Assembly: GCF_964204865.1 (NCBI RefSeq) | Contig: NC_135263.1 | Coordinates: 12,755,426-12,819,425 of the forward strand | Length of the DNA stretch: 64,000 nt | Source of the DNA: Styela clava | Taxonomy: Eukaryota; Chordata; Ascidiacea; Stolidobranchia; Styelidae | Direction of reading: 5' to 3' | Part shown: piece by piece, positions 7,937 to 44,273 of the stretch | Layout of the letters: every line of letters starts with the position of its first letter | Numbering within the stretch: position 1 is the stretch's first letter | Made by a program: the position numbers and the translations under genes | Notes under the pieces: generated by a model | Told to the model about the DNA's origin: nothing | Seen by the model: the letters and a program-made list of their open reading frames with translations, nothing else | Database searches by the model: none

Positions 7937-10900
7937 TCATCTCATGACGTCACTTTTGGGTGAATTTTTAACAAAAGTAGAAACCCCAGTTCTTGATACA
8001 GTGTCGTCATTAGCATCATCCTCGCGTATTCTTTGTTGTATTCTTGACGTGCTTGGTGACGTTTGAGGGTTTTCATCCGCTATAAAAACTAAAAATATCA
8101 TGTAATTAAAATGAAGTCTCCTAAATTCGTAATTTCTTAACGTTGTATGGCATTTTGAATTTATCGTGGTGACTCAAATGATCGGGATGATTCCAGTGAC
8201 AGGTTTTAAAAAACTGTCGTGTTTTGCCTCTGTCTGCAAATGCCATAATTGCTATATTTGGTTGATTCCAACCATCTTGATAATATTTTCCTCGGATTCC
8301 ATACATCACTCCTATAATTACAAGCAATGCGCAAAATTCTTGCTATCTATCAGTATTATCTATTGTAAAATAAAGTCCAAATTAGTCAGGTGTAGCCTTA
8401 TACAATAGCTTAAAAAATAAGTCAGTCAAGTATATATGTTACAAGTTATAAAAAACGATATTTTATGTCTAAGTTTTTGTACAAGAATCTATGAAACATG
8501 GATTGCAAGCAGGTCCATAAATTGAACAAACTGGAGAAAAATAAGCATTTCGGCACAAAAACGCACGGACAATTCCATACCCTCCAAATTCTTACCATTG
8601 TTATCAGCATCATTCATTAATGGATTGTCAAATGACATCAATTTAGAATCATTTGAAATCTTTCCGTTCTTTGTCCAATGTACTGAATCAATCTGCAGAG
8701 AATTTATTTGTTATGAAGGTATTACTATACGTTGAATAACATTAATGCTTAGCTTATGTTTAAAGCAAATTGGATTAATTTATTTAAATTCATTCATTTA
8801 AGTTTTTTTTTTGAAACAGCGATGTTACACATTGGAAAACTGGAACAACCTTACTACTTCACTACAAACAACAACAGCTGAAATGTATGAATATATAAAA
8901 ACAGGGATTTTAGGACACAGTGTAACATGTTATGTTATGTAACATGTGTATTATACACAGTGTAATATAACAGGCATTATATTATAGCAGGCATTGTTGA
9001 TAACGGAAATACTTTTTTTGACGGCAATACTAATACGGCTAAACGTTTCCAGAAGTACGTACTGTAATATGATCAAACTATGTTTGTCAAATATTGAAAT
9101 ATAAATTTGCATTCATATACCTCTAAATTATTGTTGTCATGATTAGAAGTAGTTGGACTTTGCGTTCTTTGAAATGATTTTCTTTTTTGTAGACAAATCA
9201 TAAACGTCATTGCTAGAACGAGTAGCACGACGGAACAGACAACTGCTACAGCAATAATTGCTGCATCTTTAGCTCTTTCGTTGAAGGGTTTTTTATTTAC
9301 TGAATCGTTTGTGTTGTTATTAGTAAGTTTGGAGGGCGAAGATCCATCTTCGATGAATTTATCATTGAAAGAGGCGTTTTGTAATGCAACAAAAAGTGGA
9401 AAAGAAACGGATTCGTTGTGATCTGTTGAAGACAAAAAAGATTTTGAAACATCTGTTGATTACGACCTTGCTTTTATCTAGTCGTTGATATTTGTAATAC
9501 ATCTGAATGGGTCAAAAGAAAAACATACCTAGGCTGTCATTGATCACGATTTTGTTGAGATAAAGGAAAAGATTCTCAGCCAGATTATATACATCGTATC
9601 CATCTCCACTGCCACTCCTTTGCTTCTATATTGTAAAAATGTATCAAATGATAATTAAAAGAATCAACCTAATGACACAAAATCACATCATCACTATACA
9701 AATTTAAATTTCGAAATTGATTGTTATGTTCGCATTCATAAAAATTGACATACCATATATACTTTAAAATACACTTAAATGGATATTTAACTCACTATGG
9801 CCGTTGCTATTTTCAGTTTAGTTGATGTCAAACTTTCTGCAATGCACTTAACAACAATTTTATCTGAGTAGCTCACAAGTGGTTCCATATTTCTGATCTC
9901 TTCACAGATTGTACTCACAGTTGAACCCTTACAAAAACACATACATTTAAAATTGAAAGGTATCCGAAACGCTACTGCAAATAAAATTACACCTTGCTAG
10001 TAATAAAATGGTAAACGTTTTTGAACAATGAATTTTTTAATAAAACTTCTGAGTTTCCAATGCTTTTCTCAGCAATAGAAAATTACCACCAGGGGAATTT
10101 TACACGTGGCATATTTTAATCCATGTAATACCCGCTACTCCTTGACTGAGTGCTTGCAAATTGGAGGAATGAATGAGGAGGTTTTATGTAATATATTCAT
10201 AAGAAATTCTCAATTAAGCAATCTTACCTGAAGAATATGCTGTCTGTCAAAGTAGAGATAGACCATAGGACATGGTTTTACATCACGGCTACTTCTCGGT
10301 GATGGTTTATCTGAAAAATAAAGTTTATGTTAAGAGTAGAATTATCATTAGGATTTTTGTTGATTAAAACTAAGTAGAATAGTCTATAGAATATAGAATA
10401 GTTTATAGAATATAGAATTTTAATTTGTCTATAACCATCAATGCTTGAATATAATCATATTTCTTACTTTTGTCGAAGCAATCAGCATTGTATTGACAAA
10501 TTAGTGGGATGTTATTACTGCAATTAGTAGAAATACATTCTTCTTTTCCACACCGTCCTTTTCCATAAACCGGATGGAAGCACTCAGTATTGTTATCAAC
10601 TGAAATGAAGCATTGAAACAGTAATTGAGAGAGAACATTTTCACCAATCTTTCCGTTCGCACGCTATTCATGGTTTCAGATGTACGGAAAGCTTAATATT
10701 TTAATAATCAGTCTTTTTGGAATAATTCATCTCTTTTAGACTGTTCAATATAATAATTTCTTCAGCTACGTTTAAAACTGCTTGTGGTTTAACCCTAACA
10801 AGTTTATCTTTTGATATCGATTTATTGCATTTTACCAACAATATTCACATAAAGTTGAGAAATAATCTTAATCTTACATTTATTGTGAAGAGCTTTGTAG

Positions 10901-13900
10901 TTGTGAATAACAGACTTGCACTCGCAGAAGACATCCTCACATGTAACGACGTTAATTCCTTTGAACGGAATAATAAAATGCACTTTTAACAACTTTTTGC
11001 AGTTACCAAATTCTTGATTTTTCCTCAGCCTTTTCAGTATTTTGAAAAGGTATAAAATTAATTGATAAATCTTCAACCAATTTCATCAAGTTTTGTGAAC
11101 ACTCTTCATGAATGATAATTTTCTGGTTATTTACAAAGTCGCAGGAAAATATTCAAAAGAAATGTACTCAATAAAACAATTACGTTTTTAAAATTTCTTC
11201 TAAAATACATTTTATCGCAATTTTATCATATATGTGACTTAACAATATTAATAACACGACGTATAGCTATTTTACTATTACATTCTTCAAATATTACAAA
11301 TTTTTATCCGAATAACTAAAAATATATTTCTTACTTTGGTCACAAAATTCGCCTTCATATCCTTCATGACATTCACATGAAAATTTGTTGACGTCATTAA
11401 CAACGCAATCGCCATAGGAACCGCAGTCTGTTCGATCAGTGAGTTCGTGACTACCATCTCCTAACTCGAACTTAACTTTGCATGCTGGAATTTCTGTATA
11501 ATACACAAAAATTAACTACAATCCATTACCAAAAATGAAAAAAAATATTGGATATTGTACATTGGTCTGCATGAGATTATGGTTGTGTTTGTAAAATTGA
11601 ACTTGCATTATTAACAATTGTTAATGAGTTATTCACATAATATCACTGTAACTTGCATGCATCCCATTTTTATTTTCACCTTGTTCACAGAATCTCCCGT
11701 AATATCTTTCATGACAAGTGCATTTGATTGTTTGTTCTTCCAACGAAACAATCTCGCAAGTTCCATTATTTTGGCAAGGAGAAGGTACATCAGCGCACAG
11801 ATCGACAACTTTCTCGCAAAACAAACCAACATAACCTGTAAACCAAAAAAAGTAGTTACATTTGATATACAGTTACAGTACACTTGTACAAACCTAGTTT
11901 ATTTTGAGTTTCAAGTATGTTTTAGGCGACGGTGACAACGCAAGATTCAAAATTATGCATAATTCGCAACTAACCTCCTATTATACTAATGTGAAAAATC
12001 ATTTCAAACAGAGTCACTAAAATAAAACAACAATGCTCTTAGTCTATACCCTATGCGGACATGAATATACAATGACTAATATAACCACCACTGTATTGGA
12101 GATTATATATATGAAAGTGCACTCGTTATTTATAAAATATGGCCAAATTTGGGTATGAATATCGGGCCTGTGGAAGCAGGCTACTAGAAGAAATTTGTAA
12201 GCTTCTAGGAAATTCCATAGCTATTTACTAAACATTAATAACAGATAGTCTATATCAATCGGGGGAAAAGGCTATGTTTTCACACGAACAACCGCAACGG
12301 GAATAACAATAACAACAATTTAGCAAGGCGTTCCATAGGTCCACTTAGTGTCCAAAAATGTAAATACAATACCTAGCCTGCATGCACACACGAATGATTC
12401 TTCAGATGGAATGCACGTTGCACCGTTGAGACATTCGTTATTGAAAGAACAAGCATCAAGTTTATGATCACAGGTTCTGAACAGAAATGATAACAACACT
12501 AAAAATTCTGAGTGTAGATAATTTCATTTGAACAAATGCTGCATGCAGCATAGAGTTGGGATAGTATCTCAATTGCAGGGAAGCGTCATCATCCCTGCCA
12601 GTGCGTTTCCGAATACAAAATTTAGGTTATCCTAATCAAGAAAACATTCAAAAAAATTGGGATAGCACAAAATGTATAATATATCACCTATTTGAAAATA
12701 CTTCATGAAAAGCACATTGGACGACATATACAGTTCAATATGGTTACATGCATTGTATATATATTGACCAACCAAATGTACGAATAACTTACTCTCCTGC
12801 GAAACCTTTAGTACATATGCATTGAAACCCTCCAATAGTGTTTATGCATTCTGCATCATTTTTACATAAACCATGTTGGGTTTCACATTCATTAACATCT
12901 TCCTCACAATTGAAACCGGTATATCCCTAAGAATATAATTTTAATTTAGTTACGAACACAGTAATACAAAAAATTTATTGTCGAGTAAAGGTGAGTAGAA
13001 AAGACAACATACTTCGTCACAGTTGCAATGGTATCCGTCTCGTATGGGCATACATTCTCCCTGGTTTTCACAAGTTATGTTGGCACAAAAGTCGACCTCG
13101 TTTTCACAATGCTTACCAGTGAAACCTAGCCTAAAAAAGATTCGCCATTTAATCAAATATTGAATATATGATAAATATTTATTGGATCACCATACCATAA
13201 TGATACTCTAACTCGACTCAAGTTTTTACTGAATAGGATTGATCTACTGTTGACCATCACAGTACAGAAATCGAATTTGAGCAAATTCAATGTCTTCGTT
13301 GCCCTAATATAACGGTTACTAAATGTGACAGAATGTAGCATTCAACTCAATGCTTCTACCGACGATAAGAGATGAACTCACCCACAAACGCACGTTACGT
13401 TATTGTTTAATACAAGACATCTTGCATCGTTCTGGCAGGGATTTTCTTCACATTTCAAATCATTTCTTTCTTCGCATGGATCACAATCAATTTCACAATT
13501 TTCTCCTTCAAATCCGGCGGGACAAACGCATCTGATAAAAGTATACAAAAAAAAACATCGAAAAATAAATTTATTGTCTCGAAAATGACACCTATATACA
13601 TTTGCACCTATGTACATTTGCACCTATGTATATTTGCACCTATGTATATTTGCACCCACGTACATTTGCACCCACGTACATTTGCACCCACGTATATTTG
13701 CACCCACGTATATTTGCACCCACGGACATTTGCACCCACGTACAAATGAACATTTTCGCGCTTGACCTACGTGGGTCGACTTTGAGATATGATATGCTTC
13801 TTGAAAGATAGAATAATGTTTTCAAATATTTTGAAGTAGACTTCATTTATGCGTCAATTTTCTGTGATTACATTCGTTTTAAAGTATTTTGTGTTGATTT

Positions 13901-16900
13901 TTGCTATACATTAATCTCGAATATGGCAGAAGATACGACGATCATTATATTCATTTATATCTGCCAGAAGCTATCATCGAAAGAGAATGGTTGTTAAGTC
14001 ATCGAAAGTGAATAGACATACATACTCACATGTATTCATTCTCCAAATTCACGCATGTAGAGTTAACTGGACACGGTAGTTCTACTGATTCGCAGGATGC
14101 TACTTTTGTCTGGCAATATTTTCCAACATATCCAACTTCACAATTACACACAACTGTTTTCTGTAAACAGTACCGCGGTTATACCATTTTGTAATATTTA
14201 GCCTTTGGCTAAAATTCTACAAAAATTTAGGTACTTTTAAACAAAAATAGTTTTTGACGGGTGTAAATTTAAACTTATAGCAGAATATAAATGTTGATTC
14301 TCTTTGAAATAAAAAGTTCAACTGTATATAAAAAGATTCAACTGTAGCCAAAAAAAGAATAAATCAACGAATTGTAAGTGAATATGTAGACAAACCAATA
14401 CGTAGAACTTCATTGAAGTTGATAACAACGATTGAAGTGTCAACGATTGTGTTCATCTAATATTTACGTCAAAATTTCACGCATTTCTTCCAACAAAATT
14501 GCTATGAAATTACATTTAAATTGATATCGTATCTTGTAAAGTATCATGTTACCACAATGTGAGCTGAGAATGTCAGTTCAAATAAAACCAAAACACCAAT
14601 TTAAATGTGATAAAATTATGTGTTGTATTTACTTTGCGAAACAAATATATTTATTCCTCCAAACTAAACCTAATGTACCCACAAAACATTTTGCTTTAAT
14701 CATTTGTCTGGTCATGAAAATTATGCAGGCATGTTGGCCTAACTTTTTATGATGAATTGATTACTATCATGTGAAAAATTCACGACAATTTTTTACTGAG
14801 AAAGCTATCAGTTGAATAAACTATTCTATTATGTGTAAAAGCAAATTATAGTTTAATTTCATCTGTTTTTCTCCTCAATTTAAAGTTTATTCCAGGTTAA
14901 AGGTAACTGACATATAAATTAAAAAAAAGCTTTATTCCGAATTCTAAGAGTGATGTAGTTGTAAAATAAATTTGATGCAAGCATTATGTATGAAGAATAA
15001 GTTTCACATCGATCATTCGACGGTGGCCTAACGAATTGAAATTCATTTAAACAAAACTTCCTCTTGCAATAAAATTGAAGTAAAAGGTACAATGTATTTT
15101 ATGTACAAACCTTTCGATGTGATAAAATGTCGTCGTAGATACAACTAAAGAAAATTACTCAATCCAGACATTTGTAACAATCAAAATATTTACTAACTTC
15201 GTGAAACTCAGATTCTTCTTCAAATATTGAGAAACATCTGCCATTACCATTACAAGTATCATCTTCACATGGATCTTGTATTTTTTCAGCACATGTCGGT
15301 CCAAAAAAACTTTCAGTGCAAGTGCATTCATATAGTCCATCAGAAAAGCTTTCACATTTTCCTCCTGAGAGGAATAAGTTTACTTTATCAATAAAATTTA
15401 ATTGGTTATTTAATTTATTTAATTTCCGTATTAAAACATAAACTAAAAGCGTGAAATAAAAGGAGTTTCGATAACTGAGTGATTTGGCGCCCATGATCCT
15501 TTTTTGAAGGATAATTTTAATTCTATGATTGTCTGGTCATGTGTGAGAAGCAGCCATTTTTGGCTGATGAATCGCGAACTTCAAATTCTGAGTTTACTTA
15601 AATATTGATTTCAGAATTATTGTGCTATAGATATTGATGATTTAAAGTATATTTTATCAATACAATATATGAGTAATGCATATCACAGTTATGTCATTGG
15701 ACTCCCATATTTAGTAACCTGTTAAAAACACGCGACCCAGTAAATTATGTTTCAATTTCGACTCGTCATTGATATGAATTATGTTTTGCTCATTTCCAGT
15801 AACTATAAAAATGCAGCGATGAGCAAGATACGATGAATAATTTTAGATTTGATTTAAACGAAAAAAGTTCTCTAGTGACTGAAAACAACAAGACAATGCT
15901 TGTTACCAACTTAATGACATGTTTAAAACAGTATATGAAAAGAAAAATCTTTATATAAGAATACGAAGTTTTACTTTTTTCCATTTTGCTGAGTAATTAC
16001 TATTACACTTGAGGTCTTACTTATTTTGTATACTTTATAAACAATTTTCAAACGGGATTTTATATTTTGGACAGAAGATAAAAAAAAATTTTCAAACAAT
16101 ATTCCAATAATGAAGCGTACTAATGCAATGTATTGAAATAATAAAATTATCTTATAATCAAGCATCAGTACGGCAAGGTAAAATATCTTACCATTCAAGC
16201 ATGGTTCACTTTGACATCCATCAATCAAAGATTCACAATTTTTCCCAGCATATCCTTCGTTACAATCACAATCATATGAATTTATTCCATCAACGCATTT
16301 TCCGCTATTAGAACATGAATTTTCCATGCAATCATCAATGTCGATTTCACACTTTTCACCTTTAGCGAGAAAAATATTAAAAACGTTAAATAATAAACAT
16401 ATAAATACCTCTTTTACTAAGAAGCTATATCATTATAAAAATATTCAATTTAAAATAGCGTTATCGACAACATTTGTTTTGCACCAAAGCAATTAGTTTT
16501 CTATTCTATATATTGAAAAGAGACAAATTGTTGGATATCCTGACATTTTCTTTAGTATATTTTTAACAAACAAGTAAACTGGTGTCAGATATGCTATGTA
16601 ATATTACTTGTTATTGCTATAGGCAACTCAGATTTCTGAAAAGTTTCTCACGAGGATTGCAAACCCACATGAATTTCGTTCTGAGATGAAATGTAAATTG
16701 TCAGTTTAGAAATTATAATTATCATTCAATCCACTTAGTGACTGCACTTCTGTGGTTTACAAATGGCTGAAACATTCTGACACGCAAAATTCTTCATCAA
16801 CCTTCCCAATTTGAGACATTTGAAAATTTGCACTGTCGAGCCGATATGACCCAAAACGTTTTCTTTTGTGTACTTATTTTTAGGTAATATAAACATAACA

Positions 16901-19900
16901 TCTTCGCCACATATGTAATGACAAATCCAGTTAATGACTCGGAATGTGTTTTTCCAATAAAAATCGTGCTTAAGGTTTTATTGAATAAAATTTTTATCAG
17001 CTAACCCGTGAACCCTGTATCGCATAAACACCGGAAACCGGAAGAATCCGACTCGCATTCTCCGTGGTAACCACAAGTTTCATCAAGGCAATGATTTACT
17101 TCATTTTCACAAAATTGACCATGAAATCCATCAGGACATTCACAAATAACGTGGTTGTCTATATCCTAAAAACATCAAACATTAGAATATTCGGCTATCA
17201 TGAAAAGAAATGCTACATAAAGAAACACAGAGATATTGAGTGCGATAGAGAGAGAGAGAGAGAGACAGAAAGGGAGAGCTTTAAAACACAAACCAAAAAA
17301 AAACGATTTGACCAAAACTGAATACTGAGGATAGTAAAAAATCAATTGAAATTTCATGTATTTCAATTTTAATTTCTCATTTCCTAAATTCTGGTAATAA
17401 ATTCTGATGGAATATATATTTAGTAATAGTAGAATATTGAATAATCATCAAAACCAAAAAATCGCTATCTCTAAGTTGCTGCTTCCGTATTATTTTAATT
17501 TGCTTTAAGAGTCTTGCTCTCTCTGCGATTATTGAAAATATAGCGATGGAAAGAAACTTTAAAGTAAAATTCGGAAATATTGGAGCGAAATAATAATAAC
17601 TTACCTGACAAGAACCGTCATTGTGACATGGCTCGAAGTAGCATAGATTATTTTCTGAATAGACACAAATAAAGTTAGATTCGTAAAACTATATTCTAAA
17701 TCGTATAAATGGGAGATTTGAATTGCAATGAAACTGTTGCTGTTTGTATACAGATATAAATAAATAAATCCATGAATAGTGAGTACCACGAAATCAACAT
17801 ATTAAATTGTGAATTTACATTAGATAAATCTACTTTTCAGATAAAAGTGTCATCTTGAAAATTTGCTACAACATTTTTAAATCAATTTTTGTCCAAGAAA
17901 TAGAAATCTTTTGTTAGAGAGTAATATGAAAATAGTAAATTTTCAGCAATATTCATAAATCTCTAGTAGAATTAAGTAAAAGAGCTACAATTATACGTAA
18001 GGTGCAAGAATATAAAGATAAACAATACCTGAACAATCTTTGCCTCTATATCCTCCATTGCATACACATTCATATTCTTCGTCATTTAATTTCGAACATG
18101 ACCGAGTTCCATTTTGGTTACATCCTGCTGTTACCATGCATTCTGCAATATAAAAATTTCATCTTCAAATAGACTTTTTGAGCTAATTATGTTTGAGCCA
18201 AAATTGCAAAATGAAGAAAAACTGTAAAAGGTAATAATTTCCTTTGCAAAATTACATGCAAATTTAAACAGGAATACTAAGAAAACGATATCAAATTCAT
18301 GTAATCTTTATCTTGGCCAGTTCAATTTTCCACAAATAAGACGCAATAATACCCGAAAATTATTTTGTGAATAGACATATTTTTGCGTGACCAAACATGA
18401 TTCGACAGTAAATTTCTGTGAATACAAAATTTCTCACCATTTTGCATGTTGAGTGTTTCCTCCTGTAAGAATACAGAAACAATATTTCAGAAAATTAATG
18501 CCAGACCATGTTTGATATACAGTTTTCAAATTTATAGTAAAAGGTATATATATATTTATATATATATTCGTAGCTAACTCAGATGTATTACCAACAACAA
18601 ATTTTATATGAAAAGACAAATTTTTATAGTAAGACGTGAAATTCAAGCAAACAAATAAATATCTTTATTCAAAGTTAGGATATTTTTTTTTCATTATAAT
18701 TCGGAATAACTTGATTTAATTCACTTCGATGTGAATAACTACTTAGAATATCTAATTAGTTTTTTTCTGTCTCATAAGTTGTATTTGACTACGTACATTC
18801 ATGCCGTATGCTGCTCTTTTTGAAATTTGTTTTTTCAATCATTTCTTAGCAAATATATAACAATATTTGTTTATTTCAGTAAATAATTTCAAAACATAAT
18901 ATTGAAACGAAAATAAAGTCTCTAATAAATGAATTTTATGAAAAAAACAATTTTAATTTAATTTTTAATTCGAAATATTGTTTTAATTAAATTCTGACAA
19001 TAATATCTGATTCGGAATAATAATAATGTAACAAAATACATGATGTAATGTGTATTTCAGTCAGTTTTTAATAAATATTTAACACAAAAATTGAAATTTC
19101 GACATTAAATATTTAATATCACTTTTTAATATAATTTTGTTCCTAATGTTTCTCTAAGTGATATTTTAATGTGACGAGCACCACGAGGCGACAAATTAAA
19201 AATCGATTTAGCTAATGGGTGGGACAGATTACTGAATCAAAATAATAAAATATTGTGTATTTGAGAGAGATTTTTTATCATTTTGTACCAAATGTACGAC
19301 TTTGACTATGTAATTTTATATATTATTTATTATTTTTATCAATTTGCGTAATCATTAGAATTTTTGATTAAATTATGATCCAAGTTAATTCATACGACTC
19401 TATTAAAATGAAAAATATGTTTTATGATTAAACAGCAAAAAATGAAATTTCAATTTACATCGTTTAAACTCTTTATTCAAGTCGTCATCAGCGCTAAAAT
19501 CAATTGTAAAATAGCACTTAAAATTTATCCGTTGAATTTTACGTTTGTATATTTAAAAAAAAAAAGTTAAATATACAATCAATAAAATTATGGATGGTCT
19601 TTATTTTTACAATAACCAAAAAACTCTTCTTACCGTCAGTTCTAATCCATGAAGCAAATAATCACGAAGTTGTTCGTCCGTACATGTTATTTTTCTACAA
19701 TCATATTCATTTTCGATCTCTTCTCTTTTGAAACGACTTTTGATAAATTCTGACGCAGTATTGCGATCAATAAAAACTGTAATGTTAATGAAATTTAATT
19801 CAAACATCCTGAAGAATTAATAGAATATGTTTATGAATGTAAGCCTTTTTGAGATTGTATAAATAAGCAAAAAAACATTAAAAAACTAGTCAGCCTTGAA

Positions 19901-22900
19901 AGTTCTGAAAAATTATCTTCAGAGCCTAATTTCAATCCATAATTGTTGAATATAAAAGCATCAAAACACCCAAATTGTACGAAATGAAATGGTCCTATCC
20001 GCCTGGAAATGATATTGATATGGAAATATAATATGGATTGAGTTGAAGTAAGTTATGTTGTAATAATTTTGCTTCTTCTTTGCTAAATTTGATACAACAT
20101 TAAAAGCATTCGATTATGTGTATTTCATATCAGCATAAAATTATAAATTGCCCGAGGTAACAATTCTAGCCATGCGGAAATTATTACTTTTCTGGATATG
20201 TACCGCAACAAACAAACGATCCAACAACTTGAACTTCGTGAAAATACTGTAAAATGGGATAAAGCATCGTCAGCCACTTTGTTTTTGTCGAAGAGTACTT
20301 AAAATGTTACAAAGCTTCGGTGAAGTAAAATTCACAATAATTATCGCCATTGAGAATCAAATATTTTAATTGTTATAGATAGAATTGTCAAACAACCAAA
20401 CAGTAAACAAATAATTATACAAATTCAGGAACATTCCTGACACACATATTTCGTTGCAATCTGGTACAAATTGCCCTTTTGCTGCCACAAGTGTGAAAAC
20501 TAGCTGCTTATTTGCATTTTTGAGATTTCAACATTTAATAGTGTTGTATTTTGCGCAAAACAAGGTCATAAGATTCGCATTATATAAAACTATTTAAAGG
20601 GGCAACATTAAGTGTTATTAAGACCATCGTTGCTAACTTATTCAAATATAAGAGTTTTTTTCAAACTTATCGTAAACACCTATACCAAAAATAGATTACA
20701 TTCTCCAAACTGACGTATAAACACTGACATAAGAACGTTTGTTAGAAACTAGTCAATTACAAACCAAATTTTGGCGACAAAGATTTTTTAACATGAATGA
20801 CTCTTACGTAATTTTAGGTGAGAGATCTGTAATTGATTAAAGTTTCTAATATTCGGCTGAAATATTTTTACTCAGTTGCATAGTGCATTTAGAAATCTGT
20901 TTCTGGAACATTCAACAAAAAACAACAATCAGTTTATAGTTATTGACGAATATTTGAACTGATCATTATTCATTGCAATAAAATTTTCTTAAGTTTCACC
21001 ATTTTCAGAGCAGTCATCTCCTATCCATCCGTGTGAACAAATAATCTCCCCTGTCTGTGGATGACAAGTCAGGCCTTGTCTTAGTTTTGACGAATCACAA
21101 TAAATTTTACATCGTGGACCATAGAATTTTTCAGCACATTCCAATGATATTTTTAGCTTCAATCCTGTAAATATAGATAATGTTATGAAGCTTAAAATCA
21201 GTTGTTATTTAGCCAGTCAAAAAAGCTAAACGAGAGTTTAAAAATAATTTTTGATGCAAATATCTGGTTATAAATTCTCAAGGTGTGGAACGAATGAACT
21301 AATGTGGGAACTTGTGGATAAAATAAATTAAAGAAGATTATGTTTTGAACTTAGTTAAAATTACCAATGACATATGACCTTGACATAATTTCTAAATTTA
21401 CTTTGCGATTTGAATTTGTCCACGCGGCCTAAAGTTAAAAATACAGTCACATTTTTACTATCGGCGTCATAGCACATGTCGCAATTGACCGCATTCCTAG
21501 CTTGTAACCAAATACAACACCAATTTTAAAAACTGACCAAACATGATCATTATTTATTCATTGATCTTTAGGCGTGGTGAGAAACAAATTGATGAAATGA
21601 TCTGATAGCAATAATTTATATTTAATAAATATTTGACAAAAAATTACCGTGATCTCGAATATGTGCTAATCTTCAGAATTAAATATTTGAAAAAAAAAGA
21701 GTGGTCAAAGAAAAATCACGGCATCGCCATATGGCATCATCTCAACTTAAGTCAAAGAACTACAAAACGAGAAATTGTTCTGCCATTTGAAATATAATTG
21801 CTCCTAGGAAATTTAGTTTCAACAAGTGAAGTCCACTAGCCTTTAATAAAGCTCTAACCAATTTGATAAAGTTTAATAATAACTCCCTTTGATTATGGTT
21901 ATACATATTAGCAAACTGCAATCAAATTGATGTGTATACCTGAGAGTGTGTCTACAATATGTGTTCTGTCTTCCCGTGGAAACATCAGCGGAAGAGGAAA
22001 GGAAAGAATATCATTAGCTCCATCCAACTTGTCGGACCCATCTTGATTTATATCTTTTTCAACTGGAAGAAGAAGAAGGTGCGTTGAAATCTAAAACAAA
22101 TAATTCACAAGTTGATACTTTTAACACATCACAGATGTTGCTTTCATGAGAGTTATCTGCAAAGTTTAAGTGTGTTTTCCATGGATGGGTAATTATTGCA
22201 GTATCGAAGTAGGGATAGAAATGACTTTAATTTTAATAAAATGATCATGTTAGGAGTACAATTTTACGCTTCATCGCCTTATAATCCAGTGTTTATTTGC
22301 TTGTTATTGCTAATTGAGCGTATCTGTAGATGATCGCACAATTTATATTATCATATAATAATTTTACCACAGCGTATTATTACAAAATATCAATGATACA
22401 TGAAATTGTGGTTAACGTTCCGCAAACAAAAATTTTTGTTTTATGCGATATTTATAATACCAACTTTAATATTGTTTGATTTGAGCTCCTTAAACAAATC
22501 AACCATTAAATTACATACAAATGAATTTGTCTATTAGTAGAGGTTGTGTTTGTAATAAATGCGAAAAAATTGATAACAATACAAAATTATAAGCAAATAG
22601 TCAGTTCAGAAAGCGACTACCGGATATATTTTGACCTGATACATTTCTCACGATTGTATCAAATGGGCGTGATCGAAAATTAATCAATTTAATCACGACA
22701 TTTTTCTGTATCGATATTAATTTTGCACTGGATTTTCAATTCTTATCAGTACGAAAATAATAAGCTATAATATGCACTTAATGAATTGCACTGTTGATAA
22801 TGAATAGAGCAATATACATGATGTAATTGTAATTATGTTAAAAATATTTCATCAAGATTAAAATGCTAGCTTTGATTAGTAATGTATTTACTCAGTTCCA

Positions 22901-25900
22901 AAAATAGACCATTGTTGTTTTATCGCTTCTAATTCTTTTCCACAATTAATGATGTCAATTTTAGAAAGCAATTAAATTCAAATACACTAATGTATTCCAC
23001 AAAGTATCTCATGTCACGATAACAATTGCTGTCTCATGTGTAAACAACTTCATGAAAGAAAAACATATTTATTGTACTTATTTGTTGTATTCAATACAAT
23101 CTTAAATGTTTTTGCGATTCATGTTCGTTAAAAAGGATTTGCAACAAAAACAGCACAATTGCTAAAGTCTTCAAATCCGGATAGGGCCAGTCGAAAAGAC
23201 AATGAGGATTCAATATTTAGTATCCCTGTTTTAAATTAGCTTAATATTGGTTGCCTATTAAATTTGTGATATTGTGTTATATGTACCATAGCGCACTTAC
23301 TATTAAAACTTTCTAGGCATCTAACCCAGAGTAGACAACCCACAATATAATACTACAAAATATATTCCAAAAATAGAACTTCAGTCGTTTGAATGTCAAG
23401 AAAGCTCATGTGTATTACGTAAAAGACGTCACGTCGAGACTATCGCAAATGTGAACAATGCGTAAGAGAAAAAGCTTCCTGTCACGGCATCTATTCATGC
23501 TGTCTGTTTAATACCTAACCTACCAATAAACTAAACTGATCTTGCAAAAATCACCGTATAATCCATAGCAGAAGCATTTATTATATACCTATCTAGCTAT
23601 ATTGTTGGTCTTACTACGTTTGTCTATTCGTGTTAAAATCCTAAACGAAACAAATCAGAACGAAATGGTGTCAAACAGGTTCAAACGTTGCACTTAAAAA
23701 ATAAGTGAACAAACGTGTACAGTGTGGGAAATTTTTTACATATATACATGTTTAAAGTTTTTTCTTGGCGTTACTCTTAAAATAGAGTCGTTAGTATTAC
23801 TTAAGCTGACAGTGAATATAAATAAAGTGCACTCAGATCGGTCGCCACCATGAACTTTTAAATTGTCACAGGTTTTCAAAATATAGCCATTTATCAAGAC
23901 TACGAAAAAGTTAAATACATATGTTGATTTTGAATATTCAAAAGGTTTCGAATGTTTTAAAATCCGAATGCGTCATAATGTAATTTACTGTGTAATTTCT
24001 GTTTTGGTCTCAAATAATGCCCAAGATTTTCATTACTATCGAAACACGAAAAACTCAAAACAAAATTATTTTCCGCGGCACCATGAATGAAAATGCCTAA
24101 TTTTTTACGTGGTAATGAAAAATATGTTTGTATTCTATATAGGTTAAATATATAATGTTGGAATAATTCGTGATGTGCCGGTCGCCAAAAGCAGTCCGCG
24201 TATGTATATTATACTGGCATACTAGGGGTCGAAACCAAAATCTGATTTACTATATTGAGTATTCTTCCTTGAAGACTCAACTACAAATATTTAATTTTTG
24301 AATAAATATATTTTTTATCGTTACTAAAAACGTCAGTCTGTATCTGGCTCTTCGTAAACAAAAAATATATTTAATACACTGTTACAATTACGTATTATAC
24401 ACTCAGATATTTTAAAAGAAAAGTCCGCCTAGGTAGACGTTTATTTATAAACTTAATTATATTAACAGTAATTATATCCACCCACCTTTGAATCATCGAT
24501 AGGTAAATGTAGAGCGGCAAACTCTTGAAAGTTCCTTGAAGATTCCTAATTTGAATGTAAAGATAATTGAAGTCATTAATTTAAATTTAAAGGTAAATGT
24601 CAATGAATATCACGATTAGGTCGATGTATTAATTATATTTTGCATTTGAACCACCCGTGATTGTTATAGAATTCACATTTCTCATAGAAAAAAGTTGTTC
24701 ATTTAAACTCACAATTAAGTGTGGCTTGTTTATACATCCATAGTCAAAACACAAACAACAATTATATGAGGTTAAAAATGTAAATTGATTTATTGATTTG
24801 AGTTATGATTAATGAAACATGATTGAAACCTCTTATGATAAGTAATTGAACGTTTCCTGTGAAAGAATCACTAATATTCAATACTAATGTTCAATGCTGA
24901 AATGGTCAATTATTCTTTCAAATTTCATAAAACGGGGAAGATCAGGATATGAATGAAATGTGCGAAAAGTATAATCACGTTAAATGATCATCTAGCAGTC
25001 ATACGGATTCTCAGTCATTTGGTCTAAGGTGTCGCGCTCGTGGTATCTTCAAGACACATTTTCGAGTACGTGCATATGACCTTGATTGGGCATATTTTGT
25101 GCGTGCTGACTTTCAGTTTATTGGGTACAGGTTGAACTTGAAATATACTCGAGACAAGTATTGTCTGAAACGTTTTCGGCATTAAATTTTCTTTACAGTT
25201 GGATTCATTGATTTAATAATTTGCATTTAAAATGATGTAAAAGTCATGATTGTGACACACGTTTTTGACAATGAGGAGCATTATCCAGACAATTTGGACT
25301 CTGTTGACCCATGCCTTACACAAATAAAATTACAAAATAAAAATAAAAATGGAGTGTTAAAAGGGAGAGAAACAAAAATGCAGGAATTGTACAACTCCAT
25401 TACAATATGGAAAATATTGAATGTTTAGTAAACTTTGCTCCCACCCCTAATCGCCACCTGTTTTGCGCACAGACTAACATGATCAGTATCGTCAAAAATA
25501 TTTTTGTTTTTCTGCAAAACTTTATTTTTTACATTATCTGAGTGTGTGACAATATTCAGTAAAAGTGGCAAAAAATTATATTACTGAGGCATTACCATTT
25601 TCGATGAACCTGAAACTCTACCCAGAATTAAGTCTTCTTTACTTTTGAGTAAGCATGAGTAAGTAACCTTGCTATGCGTAAATTGTCCCACGAAATAAAA
25701 GTAGATTCATACAATTTATGTTGTTTTTGAAAATTTGATATAAGCTTACCTTATTCCAATTCATTCGTGAATTTCCGCAACTATGTACAAATTTCTCGTG
25801 ATTATCGGTGTCTGACTTTCCAATACATATCTTAATTTTTTCCAAATTTTCGACCAGATTATTGGCTATACCGTTTTCATTGCCGACATCTTCCTCAAAA

Positions 25901-25989
25901 TAGGGATAAACTTTCACGAACCCAACAATATCTGCAGATACTAACTGAAGATATATTGAGAGAACTACGAAAATTTTTAATTCAGACAT
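7937..25989 (-). CDS. jag: Jagged/Serrate-type Notch ligand with a Gla-like insert
   Basis: Twenty-five exons, 5' to 3': 25989-25750, 22090-21940, 21164-21000, 19776-19634, 18462-18438, 18142-18029, 17654-17605, 17165-17006, 16359-16192, 15364-15198, 14160-14030, 13531-13382, 13130-13013, 12926-12793, 12476-12373, 11835-11680, 11493-11335, 10958-10878, 10599-10468, 10310-10228, 9927-9796, 9625-9529, 9422-9121, 8692-8596, 8079-7937. Joined they stay open for about 1133 residues; human JAG1 has 1218. Order: signal peptide (1-19), divergent MNNL-like region (20-130), DSL domain (138-182), propeptide/Gla-like module (186-241), 13 EGF repeats, VWC-like cysteine remnant, juxtamembrane domain, transmembrane helix (about 1007-1030) and a cytoplasmic tail of about 103 residues. 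The juxtamembrane motif YLYFDRQHILQGSTVSTICE strongly resembles the region after the VWC domain of JAG1 and JAG2, so this is Jagged rather than Delta. EGF repeat 10 starts DVNEC, the calcium-binding type. The tail holds FDNPLMND. Expected role: membrane ligand for Notch in trans or cis. The Gla-like part between DSL and EGF 1 is unknown in this family as far as I know. Splice sites are hand-called; exon 11's 3' edge may be off by one base. Confidence 0.85.
9121..9422 (-). other. Transmembrane-encoding exon of the Jagged-like gene
   Basis: Exon 23 (phase 1 in, phase 0 out) encodes an Asn/Ser-rich stalk followed by a hydrophobic run starting AAIIAVAVVCSVVLLVLAM, then the basic stop-transfer QKRK. 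It fixes the topology: EGF repeats outside, about 103 residues inside the cell. The next two exons (8692-8596 and 8079-7937) finish the tail, which ends KSDVMR with no obvious PDZ-binding motif. Confidence 0.85.
9796..10599 (-). other. Jagged-type cysteine-rich juxtamembrane exons
   Basis: Exons 19-21 (10599-10468, 10310-10228, 9927-9796) encode ECFHPVYGKGRCG, then PCPMVYLYFDRQHILQ, then GSTVSTICEEIRN. The same order of motifs (CFVHPC..G.G.C, then L.F......G.T...IC..IR.L) follows the VWC domain in vertebrate Jagged proteins. This is the best evidence that the gene is Jagged rather than a generic EGF protein. Confidence 0.85.
13589..13747. repeat. 16-bp minisatellite in a Jagged-like intron
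   Basis: About 9-10 tandem copies of a 16-bp unit, ACATTTGCACCYAYGT, shifting from CTATGT versions at the left to CCACGT versions at the right. It lies in the intron between exons 11 and 12 of the Jagged-like gene. Because 16 is not a multiple of three it opens false reading frames on both strands. Confidence 0.9.
17247..17265. repeat. (GA)n microsatellite in a Jagged-like intron
   Basis: An uninterrupted GA run of about 19 bp followed by GA-rich sequence, in the intron between exons 7 and 8 of the Jagged-like gene. Confidence 0.8.
18438..18462 (-). other. 25-bp micro-exon of the Gla-like module
   Basis: A 25-bp exon (phase 0 in, phase 1 out) flanked by a TTCTTACAG acceptor and a GTGAGA donor encodes EETLNMQN plus one base. 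Its size and phases are those of the hydrophobic-stack micro-exon between Gla and EGF exons in clotting factors VII, IX, X and protein C. The aromatic residues of that stack are absent here. The exon is needed to keep frame into EGF repeat 1. Confidence 0.75.
19634..19776 (-). other. Propeptide/Gla-like exon of the Jagged-like gene
   Basis: The exon starts in phase 1 and ends in phase 0, encoding residues 186-233. VFIDRNTASEFIKSRFKR resembles the propeptide of factor IX (VFLDHENANKILNRPKR), with the gamma-carboxylase recognition residues Phe and Ala and a furin-type R-x-K-R. After it comes DCRKITCTDEQLRDYLLHG, which keeps the C-x4-C loop and following helix of a Gla domain. The N-terminal loop is shortened and the paired Glu residues inside the Cys loop are lost. 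I read it as a degenerate Gla module. Calcium/phospholipid binding is doubtful. Confidence 0.7.
21000..21164 (-). other. DSL-domain exon of the Jagged-like gene
   Basis: Encodes a full DSL (Notch-binding) domain with six cysteines at residues 140, 149, 153, 164, 173 and 182. The spacing is C-x8-C-x3-C-x10-C-x8-C-x8-C. Family motifs seen are EKFYGPRC and GWIGDDC. The exon is phase 1 at both ends, so it could move as a cassette. Its donor (GTGAAA) is weak, but reading through meets a stop five codons later. Confidence 0.85.
22091..25749 (-). other. Large first intron of the Jagged-like gene
   Basis: At about 3.7 kb this is the longest intron of the gene, separating the signal-peptide exon from the rest. 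I see no coding exon in it; the frame at 25246-25428 (+) has no family signature. Long first introns often carry regulatory sites, but I cannot point to a specific one. Confidence 0.5.
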
Positions 25990-37596: not shown

Positions 37597-40500
37597 AATG
37601 TGAAGTACCTAATATTTTGTTGTTTTGGGGCAATTATCTTACATATTGTCTTCTCTGAAACAACGAACTGCAAGTTACGGGATTACGACAATAAACCTGT
37701 AAGTATATTTCAGACAACTCGTAGTTGATGGTTTCATCATTCTTTAAGTTGGTAACTTGAATTTAGTATACCGTTTAATTAAACAGCTAAGGCTGTGAGC
37801 CAAGATCTCCAAAATGTTGTTCCTATATATAGTATATTTAAGTGTCATTGAATTGCATTGAGCAATGTATGTGAATGAATCAAATGGTGTTTGTGTTACC
37901 TGAAACGAAGTATGCATGCTGGAAGCGACCTTTTTACTGGGAAATTCGCTCAACTAAATAGAGTTAAAAGACACTTACATTTTTTTTTTTAAATCTCTAT
38001 TAAGTTCTACGATGCTCAATATTCCACACAAAATGTGCTATTTTTTACGAATATTGCACCTTAAAGCCATGCCATGCAACACACTTCAGTCCCATATCGT
38101 CCCAAAATGATGCGGATCAACTGCCATGCTACTGGTATTTTGCGACGGTGGGATTTATTGGACACACAGTATGCCTATGGATCGTTTTGCTATTATGTTT
38201 TTGTTCTTGTTGGTATTTTCTTCTTATCTTAATGCTGATTAGAAAGTTTGAATGATCAGATAACGAAATTATTTCGCCATTGTTATGCGCTCTCTCGATA
38301 TGTACACTTTTTTCCACAAGCAAAATTGTATTGACATTCGTATTTTTCACGCTGATGCTACAATTTAAATTATTTTATTTTAACACAGGCTCTAGTTACT
38401 AGAGTCTAGTAGAAATAAAATTAGGAATCGACTAATTTTTTTAATTGAAATTGTCGAATATTAACTTTTCTTATATATGAGTATCGCAGAAATTTTTATA
38501 AAGATTCTAAAAATATGAGAAGTTTCTGTTTCGATTTATAGTGGTTCCACAAATACAGGAATGTGTTTTAATAATATATTTTGCTTTAGGGATCCGCATG
38601 CGACTGCGGTGAAAATACTGCTCAATCAATATGTTACGTATCCAGAGTAAGGTTTCAGAATGGAAGTTGTGGATCCTGTCCATCGGGAAATTATTTTGAC
38701 TATTCCATCTATGATTGTCAGGAATGTCCGAGACCGAATCATAACTGCGAGGAAAATGTATATCGAGACTGTAGGTTCGTATATATGGCTGTTTATTTGT
38801 GTTCTGCTATATTATGTTATTTACTTCTAATCAACAACATTAAATACTTACTTATTAAAATCTGAAGCGGACTTTCTGCTGTCAGAACATGTCAATAGTA
38901 AAAACGAGAATATCGGTCGAAGACCGAAGACTTATCGATCTTAGATCGGTAATTAGTTAATAACTCGCTAATTATACGACAAAAAATCTATAACCCAACC
39001 CAAAATCTATAGGCTTCTGGTCCGAGGTAAGATGCATGCACATGCAAAATTTGGAGCAGATTCAACCACGCGTTCGTGAGATATCGCGTTCATCTAACAG
39101 ACACACAGACAGACAGACATACATACAGACAAATACCTATCAATATACTTACCGATCTTAAGATCGATAAGTAATAATGTTTACTGAGCCACATGACTTC
39201 TGGAGCAAGTCTCACAGAGACCGTTACACTCATTGAAGTGCACAAATAGCCAGTTTCAAGCTTGGAATAATCGGTTGGTTTGAAGACAAAAACTAGGCGA
39301 GAAGATCCCAGGGGGACGCGAGAGGTCATAACATGTCCATTTGAAATTCCACGCAACTTTCATTCTTGTTTCTTTTTATGACGTAATATTGTGTTGTTCA
39401 TACACATGCACTATGCACAATAACCCCGTTTGTCAATGCCACAATAAACTACGTGTCACGAAATAGTATCAACATGCGTGATAAAACCCGTTAAAAATGA
39501 ATATCGTATTTCGTGCGATCTCTCATACTGGTATTCAAGTATGGTTGTTAACATTGCCTCGTTTTCGTAATTTTGAATTTTTTTGTCAGTTTTCAGTTGT
39601 GTTTTCAAAAAATGGTTGTAAATCAAATAACTCTAATTGTCAATATGTCTTTGGATGACCCTTAGTTTAGTTGCAATAATTATGAATTGATAGCACAAAC
39701 ACTGCGATCGACTAGCCTAAAATTAGCTCTCAGTACCTGTAAGCGGAACGTGGTGTAATGTTTCGAACAAAAATGATAGTTTTGAAAACGTAAGTAATTT
39801 TAAGCGCTGACTCCCAGAACATTCTCAAATAAAGCGTCTAAAATTTTGTCATTGCAAAGTGAAGGGTCGGAAAAACGTCCACATGCATAATTAATGTTCG
39901 AATATGAACTGTTTTCTTTATGCTGAAAATGTACATAAATTCATTTGCACTTCTCCATTTTGTAAACTGTATTTTCAACCTGGTGGTTGTAAGCATGTTA
40001 GAGGGTATGGGTATTGAATTTTGAAGACGTTAGGAAAGCCAAGAAGTCTGTAATCGTTGTGTATTTTCAACGCGCAGTTGATGGATTTTCGCATAGCTCA
40101 ATAGTGATGAAGTAAACAATCGATTGAGATTTTATGTGTGTTATGTTAACGTTTAAGCAGAAAATACATCAAAGCACAAAAAGCATACGTTTATTGCGTT
40201 TAGTTTTAGCTAAAATTTAGTTTGACTTCACCAGGTATCGCAAATTGTGCGCAAATAGGAAAATGCATGAAGACGATTATAAAAAGTATGGCCTTATACA
40301 TATGACAGAGAATAGCGAAGTTGTACTCCGATCCGTTTTATGTCTAAAAAAAATCAACTAGCGAAGTTGCAAAGTTTGTAAGATTTTTTAAAGGGAGACA
40401 CGGCCTAAAAAAAACCACTGTAATCTAGAGGGAACATGAATTTATTTATGTATTTATTTATTTTTGTTGAAATAATAATTACAAAGTAATTTGAATGTGA

Positions 40501-42521: not shown

Positions 42522-44273
42522 ATGATGTCTCGCGTAATAACGAAAATATTAGTAACTGCCACTTGCATTTTGGTGGCCTGTGATGCTGAATATATGCAAA
42601 CGAATTCTCAATGCAGCGTTGGTGAGTATTACAGATTTTTATATAAGTGCCGGAATTATTCATCTTTATAGGGGTTTGGTGATGGGGTTGCAAGCACTCA
42701 ATGAAGTAAAGTATAGCGCAAGGAATTTTATAGAAATAAAAATTAATATAACATAAATTGAAAATAGAAAATTTCAGAAAACGCAAAAACTCCAAATTAG
42801 AAAATTGTTGTTCTTTTATCATGTCTTTTATACTTTTGCTCTTAGAATAGAGCATGTTATGAATGAAAAGCAGGGAATTGTTCCTATTTTACTTGTTGAA
42901 CATAGTCTATCTAATTTACTGAACACTGACGCACAAGCCTGAGATTTCAAACCAACACCGCCAACATATAGTTAGTCACAAGACGGAAAATTTATCGATC
43001 GGCAATAGATTTGAGAAATTACGACATACGTATTTATGAGAAAAATTTATCTCGTATGAAGATTGCCGCTAATGTATAGCAAGGATTGATTTTGAAGCCA
43101 TGGTTTTTAGAATTCTATTACGCCTCGCAGCTTTGTGAAGTTTCGTACTATTTTTATCAAGACCTGGCTATAAAAAAACAGATGGTAACTATTTTGTGGT
43201 TTTAGACTAAGTATCATTCTTGTTATATAATGTAATATAATATAATAGGTAATATAATTTATTTTTGTACTGTTAGTTTAGTTTTATACACCATAGTAAG
43301 AGTGAAAAAAAATTAAAAATTATCATTTTTTTCCAGATCTTGATTTTTCCACAAAACCGTGCTTTCGATTAATTGACATTGGGAAGTTTACTTGCGATTT
43401 TTTGTACAGATGTTGCTGGAACCCTATTGAAAACAAATGTATTCAAAAAGAAGGTAATAAGAATATCTAATGAGTAAATAAGAAAACAATGTCTAAAATC
43501 TTAGAGTTATTTTAGGGGACTTGCAATGCCAAAGGATATTGGTTTAAACTGTTTTAACAATTGCACATTTAGACTTCACCCATTCATCAAATCATCAGTT
43601 TAGTCGGAGAATAGGAAACAAGGTAGGAGTCGAACCGGAACTTGAGTTTAAAATGGAGGAATATCTAACAACTGAAACAACTACCAATGTAGTACCGAGT
43701 GGTCCTTTTTCGACAGAGTATAAAAAAAATGAATATGGCGTGCATAACACGAATCAAAATCAGCTAACACCCACTGTAACATACGATGCAACTACGACAA
43801 AGAAATCTTCTCATAATGAACGATCGATTAAACAAGATATCTTAGAAGGCAGCGGCGAGAGGAGTAATACTATCGAAGGTAAATCACCAATGCTTCACGA
43901 AAACGAGGACTTGGAACTACGCAGTCTAGTAATCGACGAAACTAGTATATTTTTAACTCATATTTACGAGGCTGAGTTAGTTGATGATTTTGTCGAAGAA
44001 TACGGATCTGCTATGGATAACGAAACAGGAATAACAGAAGAAAGTTTTATTAACCAAGAAACGCAGGTGACGCAGAATGAGGAGGAAATAATTGACGTCG
44101 ATTCTCTCGATGAAGTTTCACCACCAGATGCTGATAGAGAGCAAAATATGTCGAATAAAGAACGAAGACTTGCGGAGAGACAGCGACGACGGGAGCAAAG
44201 GCGGATAGAAAGGGAAGAAAGAAGGCGTAATCGCATAAAAAAGAAAGGGTTAAGTTCAACTACAAGAAAATAG
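42522..44273 (+). CDS. Secreted Cys-rich protein with acidic middle and Arg-rich C-terminus
   Basis: Three exons, 42522-42621, 43337-43453 and 43573-44273, all joined in phase 1, give about 305 residues. Two ATGs stand in tandem at the start. A signal peptide (ITKILVTATCILVACDA) leads to a small cysteine module spread over exons 1 and 2: QCSV, then KPCFRLIDIGKFTC, then RCCWNPIENKC. Its C-x10-C-x10-C-x5-CC-x7-C spacing is close to, but not the same as, a trefoil (P-type) domain. Exon 3 is low complexity: a Thr-rich start, a long acidic part (for example NEEEIIDVDSLDE), then a helical Arg/Glu-rich tail (ERRLAERQRRREQRRIEREE). I know no named family with this layout. It shares exon phases and module with the gene at 60086-62125. 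Confidence 0.7.

Follow-up and report, generated by a model that had tools for sequence, protein, structure and literature searches.

The window analysed here, a whole stretch of 64,000 nucleotides to which all positions without a contig prefix refer, carries on its minus strand what is probably a third, fast-evolving DSL gene of the Jagged type, in which the two exons for EGF1 and EGF2 (61 + 131 bp) have been replaced by a propeptide/Gla exon pair (143 + 25 bp) of the kind found in vitamin-K-dependent proteins. The exon anatomy, the ranking of the splice sites, the statistics of the propeptide and the replacement in the slot behind the DSL exon are observations, from which I infer the common descent of the pair. 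Notch ligands keep a rigid front end, C2-DSL-EGF1-EGF2-EGF3, and the replacement, if true, would be clean evidence that exon shuffling, by the swap of a symmetric pair, has reached a core family of signalling proteins; it would also place a carboxylase-docking sequence and a furin site in a Notch ligand. A search by titles and abstracts in the open-access literature, which is a limited test, returned no description of a Notch ligand with a propeptide/Gla pair, and to my knowledge the propeptide/Gla exons described so far are N-terminal, in proteins that are secreted or membrane-bound.

The gene model (25989-7937) was built by hand and comprises 25 exons, which encode 1133 amino acids in a closed frame with GT-AG introns and compatible phases; the exon boundaries were picked by hand, and the donor of exon 10 and the acceptor of exon 21 were set such that the frame closes. 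The predicted protein runs from a signal peptide through an N-terminal domain, the DSL domain, the exon pair and an EGF array to a Jagged-like juxtamembrane part, a transmembrane stretch and a short tail (Table 1). In the whole protein, 12 EGF stretches are found by Pfam EGF and 11 by the cysteine pattern. The juxtamembrane part matches the JAG1 juxtamembrane family PF23575 below the cut-off of 27 bits (15.9 bits, E 0.014), with 90 of 110 positions covered, and a PDB search returned no relative of it. Intron 11 holds a 16-bp tandem unit (13597-13744, 9.2 copies, 93% matches). Two Cys-rich open frames on the plus strand of the window (38590-38862 and 43306-43467) resemble TNFR-like and trefoil-like exons by eye, with no Pfam match at E<=1.

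Table 1. Features of the predicted Jagged-type gene, with positions in the window.
Feature	Position	Strand	Basis
Exon 1: initiation codon, signal peptide, first part of N-terminal domain	25750..25989	-	Gene model; hydrophobic core 2.86
Exon 2: remainder of N-terminal domain, in the place of C2/MNNL but not recognisable as such	21940..22090	-	Gene model
Exon 3: DSL domain, 165 bp, phase 1-1, AG/GT ends	21000..21164	-	Pfam DSL
Exon 4: probably propeptide/Gla-derived, 143 bp, phase 1-0, AG/GT ends	19634..19776	-	Gene model; propeptide and exon-frame statistics
Propeptide-like stretch VFIDRNTASEFIKSRFKR in exon 4	19724..19776	-	Rank 2/132,893 open 18-mers
RFKR, furin-type cleavage motif ending the propeptide-like stretch	19724..19735	-	Sequence; motif rule
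Degenerate Gla-like remainder of exon 4; C-x4-C Cys codons 19699-19697 and 19684-19682	19634..19723	-	Weak statistics
Exon 5: 25 bp, phase 0-1, AG/GT ends	18438..18462	-	Best of 24 splice candidates
Exon 6: EGF domain, 114 bp, phase 1-1, AG/GT ends	18029..18142	-	Aligns best with the Jagged EGF3 of this genome
Exons 7-17: EGF array	11335..17654	-	Gene model; Cys pattern; Pfam EGF
Exons 18-22: Cys-rich region, putative Jagged-type juxtamembrane domain	9529..10958	-	Sub-threshold match to PF23575
Putative transmembrane stretch in exon 23 (exon 9422-9121)	9190..9264	-	Hydrophobic run seen by eye in translation
Exons 24-25: short cytoplasmic tail, stop	7937..8692	-	Gene model

The DSL domain of a Notch ligand is present in exon 3 (Pfam DSL, 34.2-36.7 bits, cut-off 24.2), and against the PDB this exon matches Jagged-2 (E 9e-4). 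For the C2/MNNL domain, exons 1 and 2 gave no Pfam match and no significant score with a targeted MNNL HMM (2762 of 5000 shuffles scored as high), and because this test failed, the N-terminal domain is left unnamed. DSL matches occur at three places in the genome, on C6, on C4 and in the window; by the sequences of EGF2 and EGF3, the C6 gene is the canonical Jagged and the C4 gene the Delta of this genome. Downstream of the Delta exons (C4:8645700-8662100), the same short open reading frames recur at steps of about 2-2.5 kb in a large tandem repeat. The receptor-binding loop of the DSL domain is marked by the motif FGH, which is present in the C6 and C4 genes (GFFGHFTC and DMFGHYTC, respectively) and missing from the window gene (KLRQGLTC), whose product may contact Notch in another way or fail to bind it. 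C2 and DSL are the Notch-contacting parts of Notch ligands according to the available text of PMC5538765, and with no recognisable C2 domain and no FGH in its DSL loop the window gene would more likely encode a modulator than a standard ligand.

Between the DSL exon and the next EGF exon, the sequence-only reading had placed two exons of 143 and 25 bp with phases 1-0 and 0-1, and in coordinates, lengths and phases they are as it described them; the 143-bp exon (exon 4) also encodes the propeptide-like start, VFIDRNTASEFIKSRFKR, followed by a C-x4-C segment. Exon 5 has the highest summed splice score of the 24 phase-0-to-1 candidates between exons 4 and 6, by matrices trained on other exons with exon 5 excluded, and it is the sole 25-mer among them. 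A tandem acceptor is possible 3 bp downstream (18459-18462), which would give a 22-bp form with unchanged phase. Exons 4 and 5 could be a cassette that is mostly skipped, or a dying relic, the main protein joining the DSL domain directly to an EGF exon. As phase 1 is common to the end of the DSL exon and the beginning of the EGF exon, skipping would keep the frame, and the acceptor of exon 4 is average (3.8 bits; donor 6.9 bits). I consider predominant skipping rather unlikely, because both exons are open and their splice-site scores lie in the range covered by the rest of the gene, and because, of the 293 AG-143-GT pairs in the window, just 18 give an open frame in the phase of exon 4. A genome search for a second copy of exon 4 returned none at E<=10, the sole match being the exon itself, and a search for flanking repeats that a mobile insertion might have left gave only short matches of 70-88%. 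AlphaFold modelled exon 4 alone with helices at residues 5-15, 18-24 and 34-45, but with a confidence too low for the model to be relied on (pLDDT 59.3).

In the genome of 376.6 Mb, which is apparently that of an invertebrate, Pfam Gla detects two genes with an intact Gla domain, one on C5 (54.7 bits, C5:5282732-5282821) and one on C8 (67.1 bits, C8:21137310-21137426); the window is not among the matches. The C8 gene has a 176-bp Gla exon with phase 1-0, a 25-bp 0-1 exon encoding NQFWKKYL, EGFs and a laminin-G exon (24.8 bits), and with these parts it probably resembles Gas6/protein S; the 25-bp exon was one of two 25-mers in 2.5 kb that passed the pattern, and was picked for its FW. The C5 gene, which has one kinase exon below the cut-off (18.4 bits) and in which the catalytic motifs HRDLAARN and ADFG are seen by eye, probably resembles a Gla receptor kinase. 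No clear 25-bp exon was found in the C5 gene, which counts against the proposed origin of the pair; the window and the C8 gene share the order of a 1-0 exon and then a 25-bp exon with phase 0-1. A locus of the carboxylase family (PF05090) lies on C14. The genome also contains a GH6 match of 35.4 bits; GH6 and a Gla receptor kinase are both marks of tunicates, and together they suggest that the host is probably a tunicate, whereas a COX1 search of the genome gave no match. Downstream of the Gas6/protein-S-like gene (C8:21153176-21158000) an open frame of >1600 residues looks by eye like a retroelement polyprotein. The gene for factor IX, F9, has the layout of a propeptide/Gla exon, a 25-bp exon and an EGF exon, and this layout was tested in the C8 gene of the same genome. 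In the available text of PMC6599346, the F9 propeptide and Gla domain fall in exons 2 and 3, and a 25-bp exon is not mentioned.

Scored with a PSSM from eight vertebrate propeptides (three of them seen in retrieved data), the propeptide-like stretch of exon 4 reaches 15.01 bits and is the second of 132,893 open 18-mers in 204 kb, with the true propeptide of the C5 gene ranking first (16.9), an unrelated 18-mer third (13.98) and the true propeptide of the C8 gene fourth (13.88). Extrapolation of the tail gives p ~1e-5 per 18-mer. When the PSSM was enlarged by the C5 and C8 propeptides, none of 200,000 shuffles reached the score of the window stretch, and the only one of 6721 AG-anchored 18-mers to do so was the stretch itself; among all open 18-mers 3 of 132,893 are at this score, the window stretch and presumably the two paralogues on which the matrix had been trained. 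In a scan of 2824 exon-like frames (open AG..GT, phase 1-0, 101-220 bp), exon 4 has the top propeptide score, and among the 22 frames that also have a C-x4-C 13-18 residues before their end, exon 4 comes first and the true C8 Gla exon second. The stretch ends with a basic cleavage site, RFKR, which reads as a furin-type site by the motif rule. In its sequence, this half of the exon is convincing as propeptide-like, and it is statistically clear.

A Gla module had also been claimed, and a profile search proposed as its check. Pfam Gla (PF00594) is silent at E<=10 for the 56-aa module, a 94-aa stretch and the whole protein. A whole-module HMM gave no significant score (reached by 1021 of 20,000 shuffles, ~5%), the C-x4-C helix is weak when taken alone (2684 of 100,000 Cys-fixed shuffles as high; fourth of 220 C-x4-C 16-mers), and a PDB search with the Gla-EGF stretch returned only Notch and mussel EGFs (4 matches, E 0.99-8.7). 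In an alignment of six sequences A, R, four E (EE, E, E) and both C are invariant, and exon 4 is 35% identical to the C8 Gla exon. The hallmark of the Gla family is the motif Glu-x3-Glu-x-Cys, with about ten Glu at Gla positions. Exon 4 is without this motif, having D and I at its Glu positions, and most of the Gla-position Glu are gone; from the cleavage site to the first Cys there are 8 residues, compared with 17 in factor IX and 16 in the C8 gene, so that about 8 have been lost; and the aromatic pair (FW/FY) of the 25-bp exon is missing in exon 5. The distance from the second Cys to the exon end is 16 residues, as in the C5 gene and close to the 15 of the C8 gene. With the spacing, motif Glu and aromatic pair lost, exons 4 and 5 would be Gla-derived and yet no Gla domain by the tests of the family itself. 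What stands of the claim is the pair layout, the propeptide-like start and the place of the pair in a single open gene whose phases agree and which has DSL, EGF and Jagged-like parts; what falls is the Gla domain itself, with Pfam silent and key residues lost. The pair gives the picture of a propeptide with a relic behind it rather than of a functional Gla domain able to bind membranes; its vitamin-K-dependent ancestry is likely and a working Gla module unlikely.

Alternatively, the pair may not be Gla-derived, and a lineage-specific filler exon and a microexon may have come to resemble it by chance or convergence, for instance through a new basic cleavage site. Such a coincidence seems improbable, as the register of the propeptide begins exactly at the exon boundary, exon 4 outranks a true Gla exon in the joint scan, the 25-bp exon is independent evidence, and the spacing from the helix to the exon end agrees with the genuine Gla exons; it would, however, account for the silence of Pfam Gla and for the shuffles that equal the module (~5%) and the helix (~3%), unrelated 18-mers have scores of 13.98 and 13.5 bits (exon 4: 15.0), and the finding was selected from a large scan.

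In the Jagged and Delta genes of this genome, exons of 61 and 131 bp lie between the DSL exon and EGF3 and encode EGF1-EGF2, an arrangement of Notch ligands that is well conserved according to the available text of PMC2725086. In the window gene no EGF1- or EGF2-like Cys pattern was found in 20999-18143; as a control, which covers the EGF2 pattern only, that pattern was recovered in both the C6 and the C4 gene. A derivation of exons 4 and 5 from the 61- and 131-bp exons was rejected, because the lengths and the phases differ (1-2, 2-1 versus 1-0, 0-1). Both pairs are symmetric 1-1 units, and a swap is therefore possible without a change of frame. Among 23 EGFs, exon 6 aligns best with EGF3 of the C6 Jagged (score 72, next 63, C8 EGF1 45), a score equalled by 5 of 20,000 Cys-fixed shuffles; the EGF1s of Gla proteins score 45-57. 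The Cys2-Cys3 spacing of exon 6, 7 residues, is found elsewhere in C8 EGF1 alone (1 of 10 EGFs outside the gene, 0 of 10 others within it), and as a sequence feature favours a Gla-protein EGF1. Exon 6 as the EGF1 of a Gas6/protein S was rejected as the main reading, since the scores favour Jagged EGF3. The fusion of a Gla-EGF gene to a DSL gene, which the sequence-only reading had offered as an alternative, is less likely than the shuffling of the pair alone, because exon 6 fits Jagged EGF3 best and the pair occupies the exact slot of EGF1-EGF2.

The fit of exon 6, the Jagged-like far end of the protein and the open phase-1 donor of the DSL exon also make it very unlikely that the Gla exon starts a separate Gla + EGF gene with its own promoter and signal-peptide exon, exons 1-3 belonging to another transcript. 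Normal Gla proteins begin in such a manner, and the 7-residue spacing common to exon 6 and the EGF adjoining the C8 Gla exon would suit this possibility. However, the signal-peptide exon that would open a distinct Gla gene was sought in intron 3, where only three weak frames run from an ATG to a phase-1 donor; the best reaches a hydrophobicity of 1.93 versus 2.86 in exon 1, and the donors (GTACAT, GTACTC and GTGGCT) are non-consensus.

In the preferred reading, exon shuffling would have put a degenerate propeptide/Gla pair in the place of EGF1-EGF2, the Gla part would have decayed to a short linker of disulphide and helix, and the propeptide with its RFKR would be the best-kept part. Transcription, cleavage and function are predictions of this reading. 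Most probably, a furin-type proprotein convertase would cut after RFKR in the secretory pathway and so part the head, made of the N-terminal and DSL domains, from the EGF stalk in the membrane; no disulphide is expected between the two halves, because the two Cys of the pair would form their own C-x4-C loop and the six of the DSL domain would pair among themselves. After the cut, the head would be shed or stay attached non-covalently and the stalk would lack DSL, which would make a modulator and not a pulling ligand. As the pair is symmetric, its skipping would give an uncut DSL-EGF ligand, and the window gene makes it testable whether cutting the head off switches a ligand. By analogy with matrix Gla protein, whose carboxylase-docking sequence is internal according to the available text of PMC9146348, internal docking of the carboxylase by the window propeptide is possible. 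There is only a slim chance that the product is a vitamin-K-dependent, convertase-gated Notch ligand, in which the propeptide would dock the carboxylase, EEIENE would be carboxylated, and the cut at RFKR would release or expose the DSL head, so that Notch signalling would be linked to vitamin K, calcium and furin.

With the Jagged/Serrate Notch ligands, the window gene shares the signal peptide, the DSL domain, the EGF array, the Jagged-like juxtamembrane part and the transmembrane stretch; it differs in having no recognisable C2/MNNL domain, no EGF1-EGF2 exons (61 + 131 bp) and no FGH, and in the probably Gla-derived pair that fills their slot. The pair of the vitamin-K-dependent proteins (factor IX, factor X, prothrombin, Gas6/protein S) is matched in a 1-0 exon with the propeptide first and the C-x4-C helix last, in the 25-bp 0-1 exon and the phase-1 EGF exon that follow, and in the furin-type site, whereas the window pair is internal instead of N-terminal, shortened in its mature part, mostly devoid of the Gla-position Glu, without FW/FY and Pfam-silent. 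The two Gla genes of the same genome have intact Gla domains, which come with a kinase in one case and with EGF and laminin-G domains in the other; their propeptide/Gla ancestry is proposed to be common with that of the window pair, and the exon phases of the C8 gene are identical. Matrix Gla protein has an unrelated architecture, real Gla residues and a docking sequence that is kept in the mature protein, but it resembles the window gene in that the docking sequence is internal rather than N-terminal.
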